A stretch of 59,022 bases of DNA from Brevinematales bacterium. GTDB lineage: Bacteria > Spirochaetota > Brevinematia > Brevinematales > JAOACQ01. The number at the start of each line of letters is the position of its first letter. The stretch's first letter is position 1. Under the pieces are notes generated by a model. It did no database searches and was not told the DNA's origin. It was given only the letters and a program-made list of their open reading frames with translations. This document shows positions 7,181-55,099 of the stretch, piece by piece. The DNA is taken from the NCBI GenBank assembly GCA_020052515.1, contig JAGVOW010000014.1, positions 1-59,022 on the forward strand, written 5' to 3'. The translations under genes were made by a program, and so were the position numbers.

Positions 7181-7215
7181 AAAAAAACACAGGCGACGAT
7201 CATTATCGCCGCCTG
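7181..7215 (-). terminator. Terminator/attenuator between glnB and glnD
   Basis: On the minus strand arms CAGGCGGCGAT and ATCGTCGCCTG (one mismatch, 4-nt loop) are followed by TGTTTTTTT. Because glnD starts 15 bp later on the same strand without an obvious promoter, partial read-through is the likely source of glnD expression. Confidence 0.82.
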
Positions 7216-8989: not shown

Positions 8990-9006
8990 ATGTGTTAATA
9001 ATAAAG

Positions 9007-9037
9007 TTATAGGCGCGGTTAATTACCGCGCCTATAA
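9007..9037. repeat. Variant copy of the TAGGCGCGG palindrome
   Basis: 12-bp arms TTATAGGCGCGG and CCGCGCCTATAA surround the 7-nt loop TTAATTA. It differs from the other four copies by one missing A in the centre. It lies between the HD-GYP gene and amtB. Confidence 0.9.
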
Positions 9038-9152
9038 CCGCAGTTCTAGAGCTGCAACAGGGTTTATCTTTGCAGGCAAATATTTCGTAAAGGTTGAATA
9101 GCGGCAAAAGCTGATTAATAATTAATCAACGTGCTTTAGAGGTGTTTAATAA

Positions 9153-12331: not shown

Positions 12332-12898
12332 ATGATAGAAGATTTTATTCAACTAAAAAAAGAAGCGAATGAGAGGATGGATAAAACCATTCAACATTTA
12401 AAGGATGAATTCAAAAAACTCAGGACCGGCCGGGCACATGTAGGAATGGTCGAAGATATCCGTTTTGATTTTTATGGTACGCTCACGCCGATTCGGCAGG
12501 CAGCTTCTATAAACACACCAGATCCACATACTATTGTAGTAGACGCCTGGGATAAAAGTATATTGAAAGCAATTGAAAAAGGTGTTTCGGAATCAGGCCT
12601 TGGCTTCCAGGCGGCAAATGATGGGAAAGTGATTCGTGTTTCTATTCCGCCTCTTACCGAGGAAACAAAGAGAGATTTTGTGAAAAAGGCGAAGGAAATC
12701 GCCGAGGAAATAAAAGTAACTATCCGCAATGAAAGAAGGGATATTAATAACCATGTAAAGAAATTATCAAAAGATGGGCATATTGGCGAAGACGATGAGA
12801 GAAGAGAATTGGATGATATCCAGAAGGTTACAGACAATCATATTAAAACAATAGACGACGTGGTCTTGAAAAAAGAGAAGGAAATTATGGAAGTATAA
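12332..12898 (+). CDS. frr: Ribosome recycling factor
   Basis: Releases ribosomes from mRNA after termination together with EF-G. The 188-residue length is canonical from ATG 12332 behind GGAGGG; an in-frame start at 12299 lacks a ribosome site. It shows LRTGRAHVGMVEDI, YGTLTPIRQAASI and the helical C-terminus with IRNERRDINNHVKKL. It heads frr-uppS-cdsA, a gene order widely conserved in bacteria; uppS starts 16 bp after its stop. Confidence 0.98.
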   Translation: MIEDFIQLKKEANERMDKTIQHLKDEFKKLRTGRAHVGMVEDIRFDFYGTLTPIRQAASINTPDPHTIVVDAWDKSILKAIEKGVSESGLGFQAANDGKVIRVSIPPLTEETKRDFVKKAKEIAEEIKVTIRNERRDINNHVKKLSKDGHIGEDDERRELDDIQKVTDNHIKTIDDVVLKKEKEIMEV

Positions 12899-15258: not shown

Positions 15259-15352
15259 CGCATGAATTCCCCCTTTTCAAAGCGAGTTAGGGGGATTTGA
15301 AAATAGGAATAAATATTTCATAGGATTACAATCCAAATTAAAAAATAAAAAA

Positions 15353-24239: not shown

Positions 24240-24359
24240 AAATCCCCCCTACCTTTTTTACCTTTAGCAAAGAGTATAAAGGATAAAATCCCAAGTTACA
24301 AGTTTATTTTGAATAAATTTACAAAGTATTCGCCATAAATTCCCGTTCGCTTTTTGTCT

Positions 24360-24385
24360 AACTCCCCCTTTTTAAAGGGGGAGTT
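24360..24385. repeat. C-run/G-run inverted repeat
   Basis: Arms AACTCCCCC and GGGGGAGTT flank a short T/A centre, directly after the DUF4416 stop. Related sequences occur near 15270, 44993, 49812, 54242 and 55036. It could end the DUF4416 transcript, but the T-run on that strand is short. Confidence 0.75.
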
Positions 24386-24386
24386 T

Positions 24387-24920
24387 TTAAATGCAGTTTT
24401 TCAACTGCCGCTTGTAGATTTCCCGGATTTCGGTTAAAATCGTCTTGTATTCTTCACTTCTGTAGTCGGGATAGGTCCATTCTTCCCAATGCCGCCAGCC
24501 TTTATCCCGATAGTAAAGAGTGATTTCTTCGTAAATTCCATCCCGGATGTAGAGGCGGTGCTGTTGATCTTTGGTTGTGGCGAGAACAAATTTCCCCAAT
24601 TCTAAATAGCCGGGATCCAGATTGATTTTCCTTTTATTTCCTATGGCTGATTCTATTTCTATTTGATTGGTTGTTTTTTTTATGTCTGCTAAACTATCTG
24701 GAGCAATGAGCGTTTCAAAGGCGATAAATTTTCTCCAGATAGTTTCACCCATCTCTTCCTGATAATAATTCGTAAACATAAAAAGAAAAGGCTTGCTTTG
24801 AAAATCAGCTTTTCCGTAAAAAGATAACAATTTTTGTTCAACTTCGGCAAGAATAAGCTCGCTGGAAAAAAGAATAGGGATCACCAGCTTTACTTTTGTA
24901 TGCGGATATTCTACACCCAT
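24387..24920 (-). CDS. DUF4416 family protein
   Basis: A 177-residue protein of the uncharacterised DUF4416 family. Recognisable blocks are KLVIPILFSSE, the middle INLDPGYLELGKFVLATTKD, HRLYIRDGIYEEITLYYRDKG and the C-terminal WTYPDYRSEEY. No signal peptide. Family function is unknown. GAGGAA precedes the start, and its 3' end abuts a C-run/G-run inverted repeat. Confidence 0.88.
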   Translation of the reverse strand: MGVEYPHTKVKLVIPILFSSELILAEVEQKLLSFYGKADFQSKPFLFMFTNYYQEEMGETIWRKFIAFETLIAPDSLADIKKTTNQIEIESAIGNKRKINLDPGYLELGKFVLATTKDQQHRLYIRDGIYEEITLYYRDKGWRHWEEWTYPDYRSEEYKTILTEIREIYKRQLKNCI

Positions 24921-26168: not shown

Positions 26169-26390
26169 ATGCCGATACAAATAGATAAAATTTTGAGTTT
26201 TGAGGGCAATAAATACGAAAAAACCTGTGCTATGATTAAGTACGCGCGCCATCTGGCTCAGAAGAACGAGGAGAATCTTGAAATTCCGATCAATCGTTAC
26301 ACTAAAGAAAAAATCACAGTGTCAGCCATTAATGATATCCTCACCGGAAAAGTTACTTATCATTTAGAAGCAATGCCCGAAGAAAAATGA
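26169..26390 (+). CDS. rpoZ: DNA-directed RNA polymerase omega subunit
   Basis: Small subunit that helps RNA polymerase assembly by clamping the beta-prime C-terminus. The 73-residue product begins MPIQIDKIL and contains NKYEKTCAMIKYARHLAQ, equivalent to the omega helix with the YELV-type motif, and a tail with SAINDILTGKVTY as in other spirochaetal omega proteins. GGAGGT precedes the start. Its stop overlaps the miaA start (ATGA), so the two are coupled. Confidence 0.85.
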   Translation: MPIQIDKILSFEGNKYEKTCAMIKYARHLAQKNEENLEIPINRYTKEKITVSAINDILTGKVTYHLEAMPEEK

Positions 26391-27319
26391 TTCCCGATGC
26401 CGCTTTTCCTTCTATTGCTTTAGCTGTATTGGGGCCTACTGCTGTCGGAAAATCTGAGACAGCTATTCGTTTAGCCTCCATTTTTAAGGGCGAAATTGTT
26501 TCCTGTGATTCTGTTCAGGTATATCGTTTTTTAGACATAGGATCAGCCAAGCCTGCTTTTAATGAAAGAAAGCAGGTTCCTCATCACTTCTTAGATATCT
26601 TTGATCCTGATTTTCAAATCGACGTGGGAATCTATAAAAACCTTGCTGAAAAAACCATTTTAAGTATTCAGAAGCGTAGGTGTTTGCCGGTTGTTACAGG
26701 CGGCACCGGTTTATATTTCAATTCTATTTATTATGGGCTTTCTGATGCGCCTGCCCGGGACGAAGCGGTAAGGGAAGAGCTCGAAAACAAAGTTGCCACA
26801 GAAGGTTTGGAGTTTCTCTACTGCCAATTAAAAGAAAGTGACCCTGAAAGCGCTCAAAAAATTCTTCCCGGTGATAAAAGAAGAATAATCCGGGCGCTCG
26901 AAGTTTATCAGATTGCCCGCATTCCGCTTTCGCGATTTCAAAGTCAAAACAAAAAACTTCCTATTCGATGGCTCTTGATAGGGCTTACTCTGGAACGAAA
27001 GCAATTGTACCAGAGGATAGAAAATCGTGTGGAAAAAATGCTCGAAAGAGGGCTTCTTCAGGAAACTGAGGCTATTATGCAGAAGTTCGGCAAAGATGCT
27101 TTTGCTCTGGGCAGTATTGGCTATCGGCATGCAAGGAATTTTTTACAGGGTATCTGGACCAAAGAGGAAATGGTAGAAAATTTGAAAAAAGATACTCGCC
27201 ATTACGCGAAAAGGCAGATGACCTGGTTCCGCAAAAATAAAGACATTCATTGGTTTGATGTTTTCGACTTTGAAGGGGTCGAAAGAGCGGCTAGAGATTT
27301 TCTCTATAGGCGCGGTTAA
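26387..27319 (+). CDS. miaA: tRNA dimethylallyltransferase
   Basis: Transfers a dimethylallyl group to A37 of tRNAs reading UNN codons. 310 residues: P-loop LGPTAVGKSETA, SCDSVQVYRFLDIGSAKP, HHFLDIFDP, TGGTGLYF, and the tRNA-binding C-terminus GSIGYRHARNFL and RQMTWFRKN. Its start overlaps rpoZ by 4 bp. The last three residues (Arg-Arg-Gly) and the TAA stop are encoded by a copy of the dispersed 26-bp palindrome, so insertion of the repeat probably reset the C-terminus. Confidence 0.97.
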   Translation: MIPDAAFPSIALAVLGPTAVGKSETAIRLASIFKGEIVSCDSVQVYRFLDIGSAKPAFNERKQVPHHFLDIFDPDFQIDVGIYKNLAEKTILSIQKRRCLPVVTGGTGLYFNSIYYGLSDAPARDEAVREELENKVATEGLEFLYCQLKESDPESAQKILPGDKRRIIRALEVYQIARIPLSRFQSQNKKLPIRWLLIGLTLERKQLYQRIENRVEKMLERGLLQETEAIMQKFGKDAFALGSIGYRHARNFLQGIWTKEEMVENLKKDTRHYAKRQMTWFRKNKDIHWFDVFDFEGVERAARDFLYRRG

Positions 27320-27332
27320 TTAACCGCGCCTA
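27307..27332. repeat. 26-bp perfect palindrome (TAGGCGCGGTTAA half-site), overlapping the miaA stop
   Basis: Exact copy; half-site TAGGCGCGGTTAA followed by its reverse complement. The first 13 bases include the final miaA codons and stop. No T-run follows, so it is not a standard terminator. Confidence 0.95.
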
Positions 27333-47343: not shown

Positions 47344-48354
47344 TTAAACCGTCTTTCCCCCGCTCGCTTTTTCCAGTCTGTTCATGATGGCCCTGCCGAT
47401 GCCTTTCTCTTCAACGGCCTGAGCGATGATAATTTCAACTCCCATCTGGTCTAAATCCACCAGGGTTTTATAGAGGTTTTTCGCGTAATCAGCAAGGGAG
47501 CTGAAACTGATTTGCTCTCTGTTTTCAGAAGGCGGTATGTCAAAAGAAAGGTGGATTACCCCAATTTTCCTGTCTCCAAACAGTTTATTTACTTTGACGT
47601 TTTTCCAATGTTCGGCCAGATAAACAGGCGCTTTCGGCTGATAATGGGCGTACTTCATTCCCGGTGAAGAGGGTTTTGCATGACTGCCGCTTGCTTCCTG
47701 AATAAGTGGGTTTTTACTTCCCAGCACAACGCGGATCATTTCTTCCGTTACGGCGCCGGGCCTCAGAATCTTAATCTGTTCATCTGGAATGCTTACCACG
47801 GTTGATTCCAGGCCCACTTCGCAACTGCCGCCGTCTATAATGGCATCTACTCTTCCCTTCATTTCCATCACAGCCATGTCAAAAGTCGTAGGGCTAGGGC
47901 GTCCTGACCGATTCGCTGAAGGCGCCGCGATAGGCAAGCCAGATTTTTCAAGCAGAAGCCGGGCTATGGGATGAGAGGGAATCCTGACGGCGACTGTGTC
48001 TAAGCCTGCTGTTACAATCGCCGGTACAGCCTTGTTTTTAGCCAGGACTATAGTAAAAGGCCCGGGAGAAAAGGTTTCGAACAATTGAAGCGCTGATGAA
48101 GGAATATTTTTTGCTACAGTAGATAAATCTTTTATGCTCAAAATATGGACAATTAGAGGATTATCGCCTGGCCTGCCCTTGGCTTTAAAAATGGAAGCGG
48201 CTGCGTCCTCATCGAAAGCGTTCGCGCCCAATCCATAAACCGTCTCTGTGGGAAACACCACAAGGCCGCCGTTTTTCAAAATCAAAGCCGCGCACTCCAG
48301 CTCACATGGATCATTGAGAATATTTCGTAATAGAAGGGTGTGTTTATTGCGCAT
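47344..48354 (-). CDS. L-threonylcarbamoyladenylate synthase, Sua5 type
   Basis: Makes threonylcarbamoyl-AMP for the t6A37 modification of tRNA. 336 residues: the YrdC domain (about 12-215) with PTETVYGLGANAFDE, KGRPGDNPLIVHI, PSANRSGRPSPT and LESTVVSI, followed by the Sua5 C-terminal domain after the linker SSPGMKYAHYQPKAPV. It lies downstream of the glycosyltransferase, separated by a 26-bp palindrome copy, and lacks a strong ribosome site (GGAA only). Confidence 0.95.
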   Translation of the reverse strand: MRNKHTLLLRNILNDPCELECAALILKNGGLVVFPTETVYGLGANAFDEDAAASIFKAKGRPGDNPLIVHILSIKDLSTVAKNIPSSALQLFETFSPGPFTIVLAKNKAVPAIVTAGLDTVAVRIPSHPIARLLLEKSGLPIAAPSANRSGRPSPTTFDMAVMEMKGRVDAIIDGGSCEVGLESTVVSIPDEQIKILRPGAVTEEMIRVVLGSKNPLIQEASGSHAKPSSPGMKYAHYQPKAPVYLAEHWKNVKVNKLFGDRKIGVIHLSFDIPPSENREQISFSSLADYAKNLYKTLVDLDQMGVEIIIAQAVEEKGIGRAIMNRLEKASGGKTV

Positions 48355-48365
48355 TTGTTATTCCA

Positions 48366-48391
48366 TAGGCGCGGTTAATTAACCGCGCCTA
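48366..48391. repeat. 26-bp perfect palindrome (TAGGCGCGGTTAA half-site)
   Basis: Exact copy between the glycosyltransferase stop and the sua5-type start, 11 bp upstream of the latter. Confidence 0.95.
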
Positions 48392-48397
48392 AATTCT

Positions 48398-49597
48398 CTA
48401 TTCAATTGTTTCCTTTTTCAACTGATCCAGCCTGTCGGGATAAAGCTCCAGAACTCTTTTATAAAGCTTTTCCATCCGTTCTACATGGTGGTCAGCCGTG
48501 AACATCTGAGAAATCTCAAGGCTTGCTTTGGAAAATTGCTTCAAAAGCGCATTATCATTAAGCAATAATTTGATTTTTTCGGTCATTTCTTCGTCTGTAT
48601 CCACCAGATAGCCGTTCTTACCGGGATAAACGAGGTCTAAATAGCTGTCATCCCTTCTGGCTATCAAAGGAAGCCCGCACATAGCGCCTTCAATCAAAGT
48701 CATCGGGTGCACTTCGCTTAAGGAGGAGGTCACAAAAATATCCGCTATGGAATAAAGCTGATAAACTTTGTCCCAGTTGACAAAACCGGTAAATATAAAA
48801 GTGGACTCTAGTCCCACTGCCTTCGCGTTATCTTTAAGCTTTGTCAAATCAGGGCCATCTCCTACCAATATCAGTTTTACATCGGGGTTTTCTTTAGCGA
48901 TCGGCACTACGGAATTAAACAACTCCTGCACTCTCTTTTCCTGGCCCATCCTTCCTACAAAAACCAGCAATTTGTCGGACTTCTGGATGCCGTATTGATT
49001 TCTCAGTTTAGTAATATCGCCTTCCGTGAAGGAAGAGGATTTAAACTTTTTCATATCAATACCATTTGGGACAATCTGTACCGGCACTTCGGGAATGACC
49101 ATTTGATCGTATTTTTTAGCCTTTACCGAAGGGGCGACAATGGTACTCACTCCCTTCAGAAAAAAGCGCATAATCCGCTTTACCATTTTAGAAGATAATA
49201 GCCAGCCATGGAAAATATAATGACGGTACTCTTCCCACATGGTGTGGGTAGTATGAATATGCGGAATGTGGAGCTTTTTCGCGGCGGCTTTTCCGCTGAA
49301 GCCCAGCGCAAATTCGGTATGGGTGTGAATAAGCTCAACCTTATTCTCTTTTAAAAAGTTTAATAATTTTTTCCGATTGACAAGCCCTATTCCATAATCT
49401 TGCTTATCGCCCAATCCCAGAACAAAAGTGGGTACGCGGTAGATGTTTTTCTCCTTTTCCTTGTAGCCTTTTACTTCTACAGTCGCTACTACAACATGGT
49501 GCCCCCTCTTTTCCAAACCTTCCTTTAACTGCAGCGCGGATGTAATCACTCCATTCTTCATGGGGGTAAAAGCGTCCAACATAAGCGCGATATTCAT
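48398..49597 (-). CDS. Glycosyltransferase family 4
   Basis: 399 residues with GT-B fold. The N-terminal acceptor half has LMLDAFTPMKNGVITSA and IHTHTEFALGFSGKAAA. The C-terminal donor half has VPNGIDMKKFK, LVFVGRMGQEKRVQEL, LILVGDGPDL and SSLSEVHPMTLIEGAMCGLP with the E-x7-E pattern. The N-terminal pattern resembles diacylglycerol glucosyltransferases that make membrane glycolipids; this specificity is inference. GGGAGGCGG precedes the start. Confidence 0.92.
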   Translation of the reverse strand: MNIALMLDAFTPMKNGVITSALQLKEGLEKRGHHVVVATVEVKGYKEKEKNIYRVPTFVLGLGDKQDYGIGLVNRKKLLNFLKENKVELIHTHTEFALGFSGKAAAKKLHIPHIHTTHTMWEEYRHYIFHGWLLSSKMVKRIMRFFLKGVSTIVAPSVKAKKYDQMVIPEVPVQIVPNGIDMKKFKSSSFTEGDITKLRNQYGIQKSDKLLVFVGRMGQEKRVQELFNSVVPIAKENPDVKLILVGDGPDLTKLKDNAKAVGLESTFIFTGFVNWDKVYQLYSIADIFVTSSLSEVHPMTLIEGAMCGLPLIARRDDSYLDLVYPGKNGYLVDTDEEMTEKIKLLLNDNALLKQFSKASLEISQMFTADHHVERMEKLYKRVLELYPDRLDQLKKETIE

Positions 49598-49652
49598 AAC
49601 CGCCTCCCTTATTCGAATTTCGATATAGAAAACTATAAGTAAAACAATCGCA

Positions 49653-49678
49653 TAGGCGCGGTTAATTAACCGCGCCTA
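49653..49678. repeat. 26-bp perfect palindrome (TAGGCGCGGTTAA half-site)
   Basis: Exact copy, extended by two paired bases on each side (CA...TG) to 30 bp. Confidence 0.95.
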
Positions 49679-49770
49679 TGCTCTCTTTTTATCGACAGCG
49701 GTGCCTTAATTCTAAAACCATTGCGTTATTTTATTTTTGGAATTATAATAGATCTCGAACGCACGGTTTA

Positions 49771-49796
49771 TAGGCGCGGTTAATTAACCGCGCCTA
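49771..49796. repeat. 26-bp perfect palindrome (TAGGCGCGGTTAA half-site)
   Basis: Exact copy, 92 bp from the previous one, extended by TA on each side. Confidence 0.95.
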
Positions 49797-49853
49797 TATT
49801 TAAATTTACTTTACCACCCCTTAAAGGGGGGCAGGGGGCCACAGGAGGAAATT

Positions 49854-54163: not shown

Positions 54164-54241
54164 AAAGACCTCTTCTGTTTTCTTAAATCGAAAACTATTT
54201 ATATATCGGAAAAACTGCGGGGAAAGCTTTAATCTTTTATT

Positions 54242-54270
54242 TCCCCCTTTCAAAGGGGGCCAGGGGGAGA
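54242..54270. repeat. C-run/G-run inverted repeat
   Basis: CCCCCTTTCAAAGGGGG followed by CCAGGGGGA; the C-run/G-run family, in the spacer between the HD-GYP gene and the lipoprotein gene. Confidence 0.75.
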
Positions 54271-55014: not shown

Positions 55015-55070
55015 ATCATTTCGAAGTAAAAAATCCCCCCGGCCCCCTTTGAAAAGGGGGAGTTAAAAAA

Positions 55071-55099
55071 TTGCTTAAATTCAGCTTTTCGATTAAAAT
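55071..55099 (+). promoter_or_regulatory. Possible sigma-70-type promoter of the 55207-56433 pair
   Basis: TTGCTT (55071-55076), 17 bp, TAAAAT (55094-55099), about 108 bp upstream of the start. Confidence 0.5.

Follow-up and report, generated by a model that had tools for sequence, protein, structure and literature searches.

In the genome of a Brevinematales bacterium, the last codons and the stop codon (TAA) of the miaA gene (ORF 26387-27319; Pfam IPPT, E value 5e-80) are supplied by a copy of a 26-bp palindrome that recurs in the same window (the whole stretch of 59,022 nucleotides that was analysed), which raises the question of what this palindrome is and how it came to be dispersed. A sequence-only reading of the window had noticed the arrangement at miaA and had argued against a simple terminator, naming a small mobile palindrome, a selfish hairpin, or a protein-binding site instead. 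The mobile or selfish alternative is supported here: a RAYT (TnpA-REP, Y1/HUH) partner was found, and T-tracts at the copies are at the control level. The palindrome is probably a non-autonomous, REP-like element of such a transposase, with its flank copied in inverted form at many sites.

Copies in the window and across the genome

All four exact 26-mers claimed by the sequence-only reading are present in the window, compared with none expected from 100 shuffles, and the shortened copy that it placed at 9007-9037 proved to be a 25-mer with a 7-nt centre at 9010-9034. Its count of five copies therefore stands but overlooks a sixth, degenerate relative at 7191-7214. The copies are intergenic, as claimed, except for the one at 27307, at the end of miaA. 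The features discussed are as follows.

7191-7214, no strand: degenerate relative, AGGCGACGATCATTATCGCCGCCT, of the AGGCG-N14-CGCCT type, with 2 of 12 pairs broken
9006-9038, no strand: variant copy (core 9010-9034, centre TTAATTA), with arms reaching GTTATA...TATAAC
26387-27319, plus strand: miaA (IPP transferase), its C terminus ended by the palindrome
27307-27332, no strand: palindrome copy TAGGCGCGGTTAATTAACCGCGCCTA, the 26-mer itself, at the 3' end of miaA, without locus-specific arms
47344-48354, minus strand: Sua5/YrdC gene, one neighbour of the copy at 48366-48391
48366-48391, no strand: exact copy, in a 43-bp gap with the Sua5/YrdC gene on one side and the glycosyltransferase gene on the other
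48398-49597, minus strand: glycosyltransferase gene, the other neighbour of the same copy
49650-49681, no strand: exact copy whose perfect pairing continues from the core (49653-49678) outward to GCATA...TATGC
49769-49798, no strand: exact copy whose perfect pairing continues from the core (49771-49796) outward to TATA...TATA

The variant copy has an ammonium-transporter gene on one side and an HD-domain gene on the other, and the cores at 49653 and 49771 are 118 bp apart. The window also carries a further repeat family, the dispersed inverted repeat CCCCCTTT...AAAGGGGG (15265-15298, 24354-24392, 54235-54268, and 55031-55071).

The genome-wide count proposed by the sequence-only reading yielded far more copies than the five in the window. 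In the whole genome (2,615,017 bases, or 2.6 Mb, in 114 contigs; 99.6% complete), there are 80 copies of the 26-mer at up to 3 mismatches and 83 copies of its 22-bp core at up to 2 mismatches, with zero matches to a backwards control pattern; a few of these copies are counted twice, as contig C95 is a fold-back read both ways and the end of contig C29 and the start of contig C60 are the halves of a single copy. That reading had named two findings that would speak against mobility, namely, the lack of further copies or their fixation at identical positions in distant relatives; neither was seen, and the palindrome has 0 copies in 59 relatives, which include the only same-family genome. Exact matches to the 22-mer were likewise absent from 84,980 species genomes and from the IMG/VR viral contigs (two scans that possibly left out the genome itself), as well as from the genome contigs collection, and no dispersed palindrome family was seen in the sampled stretches of three relatives. 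In the 1.87 Mb that were read letter by letter (∼72% of the genome, which is also the coverage of the arm statistics given below), 65 perfect cores were found, compared with single-digit counts for each variant. The rarity of near-copies and the absence of the palindrome from relatives indicate that it expanded recently within a single lineage.

Gene context and symmetry of the palindrome

Gene context was assigned from a simple ORF map, in which ORFs cover ∼92% of the sequence. The palindrome was found in 41 tandem, 16 convergent, and 8 divergent gaps and at 7 contig edges, and none of the 65 classifiable copies lies inside a predicted gene. The palindrome is overrepresented in convergent gaps (16/65; odds ratio, 2.7; p = 0.002) and underrepresented in divergent ones (8/65; odds ratio, 0.36; p = 0.004). 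In tandem gaps, its midpoint is typically ∼20 to 35 bp past the upstream stop codon. The palindrome carries stop codons in all six frames, so that its insertion within a gene would truncate that gene. Paralogous genes at four different loci (L053:1563, L038:14290, L063:398, and L074:15062) have palindromes of different families shortly past their stop codons.

The position of most copies just past stop codons and the bias toward convergent gaps would also suit intrinsic terminators or stabilisers of mRNA 3' ends that are maintained by selection, and some of the window copies do fit a loose terminator pattern. However, T-tracts accompany only 14 of 63 copies (22%), compared with 22.6% of random intergenic control points, and a near-uniform core that is missing from all relatives is not what selection on terminators would suggest. 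Together with the symmetry and the arms described below, this makes such an explanation quite improbable, although RNA effects are possible as a side benefit.

The palindrome belongs to a set of 24-bp sequences of the form AGGCG-N14-CGCCT that, in the 1.87 Mb read, are nearly always perfectly self-complementary. Their interiors include CGGTTAATTAACCG (the main palindrome, n = 65), ACAATAATTATTGT (n = 7), AGGTTAATTAACCT (n = 3), and ACGATTCGAATCGT (n = 2), the others being found once each. The differences between members of the set are symmetric and run right through the centre, where RNA pairing would not need symmetric change; such change is superfluous for an RNA loop and counts against the terminator explanation. 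When the zero-loop palindromes of this genome were surveyed, almost every long one proved to belong to a family. As single-stranded DNA, a 28-nt strand folds into 12 pairs (-14.2 kcal/mol). The conserved foot is ATAGGCG/CGCCTAT, with A or T, and never G, at left position -3 in 62 of 62 copies.

In its size (within the 20- to 40-bp range), copy number, and extragenic location, the palindrome resembles REPs. It contains neither the GT[AG]G nor the CGTC foot motif and shows no strand polarity in the form of an unpaired foot, loop, or bulge, the core being a perfect zero-loop palindrome. An uptake sequence was considered and rejected, as isolated half-sites are almost absent. The small dispersed repeats of Nostoc, reportedly described by Elhai et al. 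in 2008 as 21 to 27 nt long, mobile, subject to compensatory changes, and nested in other repeats, are a further point of reference; we know of no described link of these repeats to RAYTs and of no locus-specific arms in them. Elsewhere in the genome, at L066:17845, a 24-bp palindrome contains the ParB parS consensus, TGTTTCACGTGAAACA.

Perfect two-fold symmetry that includes the centre is typical of the operators of dimeric DNA-binding regulators, and the symmetric variants could be paralogous operators. Nevertheless, the copies lie behind stop codons and avoid the divergent (promoter-containing) gaps, diverged copies are fewer than would be usual for operators, cognate palindromes are found in frame at RAYT genes across genomes (see below), and the locus-specific arms would be left unexplained. 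An operator role for the palindrome is therefore highly improbable.

RAYT transposases and their cognate palindromes

Five Y1 (HUH) transposase genes (PF01797) are encoded in the genome. The sequence-only reading had proposed a search for a REP-associated tyrosine transposase, and one was indeed found, with near-identical palindromes flanking its gene. This gene, L159, lies between GTATAGGCGAGGTTAATTAACCTCGCCTATAC and ATAGGCGAGGTTAATTAACCTCGCCTAT and has on either side a copy of AGGCGAGGTTAATTAACCTCGCCT, a palindrome that differs from the main core by one symmetric base pair; in the second RAYT gene, L161, AGGCGACGATTCGAATCGTCGCCT is found inside the reading frame and again downstream. The exact 83-copy core does not flank any RAYT gene of this genome, and the closest partner is one symmetric base pair off, so that the association of RAYT and cognate palindrome is through variants, on both sides at L159 and inside and downstream at L161. 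The L159 protein scores 81.9 with the curated NCBIfam model REP_Tyr_transpos (cut-off, 80), and its sole PDB match is 4er8, TnpA-REP. The L158 protein also scores above the NCBIfam cut-off, and no AGGCG palindrome was found beside its gene. The remaining two genes, L157 (1417-1974) and L160 (17-544), represent a second Y1 type; the AACAAGGGGCTTAAGCCCCTTGTT palindrome upstream of L157 is also present at other loci (L126, L095, and L074).

Four RAYT relatives were located in named genomes. L162, from Falkowbacteria, and L164 carry, respectively, AGGCGACACATCGATGTGTCGCCT and AGGCGAGGTTCCGGAACCTCGCCT in frame, aligned with the position of the L161 palindrome, so that in all three proteins the palindrome falls at the same place between the HuH and Y motifs; L163 has AGGCGGGCAAACGTTTGCCCGCCT both around its gene and within its reading frame. 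Dispersed palindromes with symmetric interior variants number 15 in the L163 genome, 17 in the L164 genome, and two in the L162 genome. The AlphaFold model of L164, which is of modest quality (pLDDT, 65), has as its top fold match 4er8, the structure of TnpA-REP in complex with a REP hairpin.

The survey was extended to 296 genomes of the phylum, with palindrome-rich genomes defined as those with at least 20 matches to AGGCG-N14-CGCCT and at least twice the number for the reversed control. There are 22 such genomes besides the one studied here. RAYT relatives are present in 19 of these 22 versus 55 of 273 other genomes (Fisher p = 4.6e-10), and members or relics of the close RAYT clade are present in 10 of 22 versus 10 of 273 (p = 7e-8); these p-values are only descriptive, because the threshold was chosen once the counts had been seen and the genomes are phylogenetically related. 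The link between palindrome and RAYT thus rests on more than one genome. No RAYT relatives were found in viral contigs and plasmids, and the system is found in numerous genera of a single phylum as well as in Falkowbacteria. We infer that the palindrome is quite likely mobilised by a RAYT. Each copy with its conserved flanks would, when single-stranded, form a hairpin of 12 pairs that was most likely nicked and spread by the genome's own RAYT, the one between two variants differing by one symmetric pair, and the targets would be non-coding single-stranded DNA, chiefly right behind stop codons.

The closest known counterpart appears to be TnpA-Y1 subclass 2.4 (RAYT group 4), for which Quentin et al. 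2018 (PMC6006769) describe double-foot REPs and REPs placed in frame inside the transposase gene. The likeness extends to the presence of a foot at both ends of the palindrome, a cognate RAYT, and one REP family per RAYT (PMC6006769). In contrast, the feet of subclass 2.4 are GT[AG]G/C[TC]AC rather than AGGCG/CGCCT, all families sampled here are 24 bp long and loop-free, the Y motif is Y---NP (YIxNNP) in subclass 2.4 and Y---Q in L159 and L161, and the text consulted makes no mention of inverted arms specific to a locus (PMC6006769). In detail, the Y motif reads YIEYNP in L164, YIRKQ in L159, and YIEQQ in L161, WQ (the W motif given for subclass 2.4) is present in L164, and the HuH motif is DH[LVF]H versus NH[IFV]H in subclass 2.4.

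Classical REPs and REPINs with their TnpA-REP enzymes in E. coli and Pseudomonas are similarly 20 to 40 bp long, extragenic, multicopy, and located downstream of genes, with a low-copy RAYT flanked by REPs (PMC3116915, PMC8266576). Most REPs fall into the GTAG and CGTC types (Di Nocera 2013, PMC3733652), and the TnpA-REP enzymes studied are strand-specific and depend on the foot, loop, or bulge (Corneloup 2021, PMC8266576). The present palindrome has none of the three hallmarks of classical REPs, namely, the one-sided GTAG foot, the loop or bulge, and the strand polarity; lacking the foot motif and the polarity, it is not filed here as a classical REP, although it appears to work like one. RAYTs cut REPs in vitro, and the mechanisms of REP dissemination have been described as poorly understood (PMC8266576). 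The system provides a RAYT substrate that is strand-neutral and has an exchangeable 14-bp interior paired to different RAYTs, making palindrome recognition, insertion, and growth directly testable in vitro.

Locus-specific inverted arms

Outside the conserved ATA/TAT, many copies are prolonged as perfect inverted repeats that differ at every locus, such as GCCTCACTCTACTCTATA-core-TATAGAGTAGAGTGAGGC at L065:2420. Arm lengths, counted outward from GGCGCGG, were determined for the 62 non-duplicate copies with both flanks and compared with 2,000 re-pairings of the flanks. Arms of at least 5 bp are found in 37 copies (5.5 expected; maximum, 14), those of at least 7 bp in 26 (0.4 expected; maximum, 3), and those of at least 9 bp (9 to 18 bp) in 17 (0.03 expected; maximum, 1). 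The arms are AT-rich (33% GC), contain Watson-Crick pairs only, and end abruptly in unpaired sequence; past the first mismatch, pairing of the flanks is at the chance level of 25%. With such sharp ends and chance pairing beyond them, the arms are best read as one-step copies rather than the slowly selected longer stems that the terminator explanation would make of them. Concerning the target duplication that the sequence-only reading had proposed to look for, no direct one was found, the flanks being reverse complements of each other instead. The palindrome therefore lacks the mark of a MITE of a DDE transposase, and the TA steps at its two ends are its own.

It is highly likely that the arms arose by inverted copying of one flank. 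Information on the direction comes from four partly informative sites in paralogous repeats and is clear only at L078:1858, where the core sits in the dispersed repeat GCCTCACCCCGGCCTTCGG.... Here the left flank CTTCGGAC (CTTCGG) is ancestral to the host repeat, the right arm GTCCGAAG copies the left flank, the right arm TATGTCCGAAG is missing from the related repeat copies shown, and the tip hairpin of the host repeat is gone, with the core in its place. At this single site, the combination of an ancestral left flank and a new right arm indicates that left was copied to right and that the older hairpin was replaced. At L034, L030, and L108, too, the core lies at or near the hairpin position of another repeat, as would be expected if the element preferred to insert at the centre of older palindromes or hairpins and the arms were pre-existing. 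However, repeat families aside, perfect palindromes with arms of at least 9 bp occur naturally about as seldom as chance predicts, the flank X and its complement X' adjoin the core without loop remnants, and the L078 arm is missing from related copies of the host repeat, all of which makes pre-existing arms unlikely.

Contigs do break at palindromes, which brings up the possibility that arms or copies were created by fold-backs during library preparation or assembly. Contig C29 ends and C60 starts at the same core, with matching arms of 21 bp, and contig C95 of genome G000 (43,724 bp; L072 and L118) is its own reverse complement, with 16,276 of 16,276 mirrored bases identical. This perfect 43.7-kb fold-back, probably an assembly artefact, is centred on a different palindrome, GTAGAGGCGCACGGCCGTGCGCCTCTAC, which is a GTAG double-foot palindrome. 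Fold-backs run on without limit, whereas the arms stop (after 5 to 18 bp) and are followed by the next gene, which requires reads across the junction. Armed copies are often located in gaps of 30 to 60 bp, with the contig running into the next gene, and similar palindromes are found in independent assemblies, so an artefactual origin has very little chance of being correct. At the end of contig C94 (L071:17928), GGCGCGGCAAAATGCCGCGCC precedes the Illumina adapter sequence AGATCGGAAGAG.

The copying of a flank could proceed by one of two routes. At many sites, the 5' flank X would have served once as the template for its reverse complement X' on the opposite side, giving X-core-X': the free 3' end of the hairpin would fold back, copy X for 0 to 21 nt, and rejoin the downstream DNA. 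This could take place by template switching as a replication fork meets the hairpin or by fill-in from the 3'-OH left by the RAYT cut at the foot, prior to rejoining. Template switching during replication is somewhat favoured over RAYT-coupled fill-in, and it would also account for the loss of the older hairpin and for the symmetric changes in the interior. It has been documented at quasi-palindromes in yeast and microbes (PMC3820800, PMC8794818), where one arm likewise serves as the template for the other, so that inverted repeats are created or made perfect; it is a mutational process rather than an element, and in the present case it would be concentrated on a mobile palindrome with dispersed copies. 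In the same genome, 13 copies of sister palindromes have significantly shorter arms (p = 0.02), and arms are mostly absent from the palindromes of genome G060, suggesting that arm formation is no constant byproduct of insertion and mildly favouring a process driven by the GC-rich hairpin over an obligate insertion step.

It is possible, if rather doubtful, that inverted target duplication is part of insertion by this class of RAYTs, with the enzyme leaving at the foot of the symmetric, strand-neutral hairpin a 3'-OH that is extended along the 5' flank of the target. Each new copy would thereby leave an inverted scar specific to its locus, a signature unlike the direct target duplication of DDE transposases or the scarless HUH insertion of IS200/IS605. 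A literature search, with subscription papers partly outside its scope, turned up no description of REPs with locus-specific inverted arms. The ∼80 near-identical copies with locus-specific inverted scars provide a physical record of events at the hairpin.

Reshuffling of flanks between copies was considered as a reason for the low-arm copies and explains few of them, as most do not re-pair; the flanks of the C95 copies at 12731 and 13683 do re-pair if the intervening segment is inverted. The flank of the copy at L034:6329, shared with more than 20 other places, belongs to a two-hairpin dispersed repeat, GTAGCCGCGGGCTTTAGCCCGCGTAAATTAAGCGCAAGCTAAAGCTTGCGGCTACAT, in which contigs end. The copies at L049:5622 and L072:13683, which are at different loci, have in common a 15-nt flank (ATAAGAACTCACATA), which is above chance; possibly, a longer armed unit has moved.
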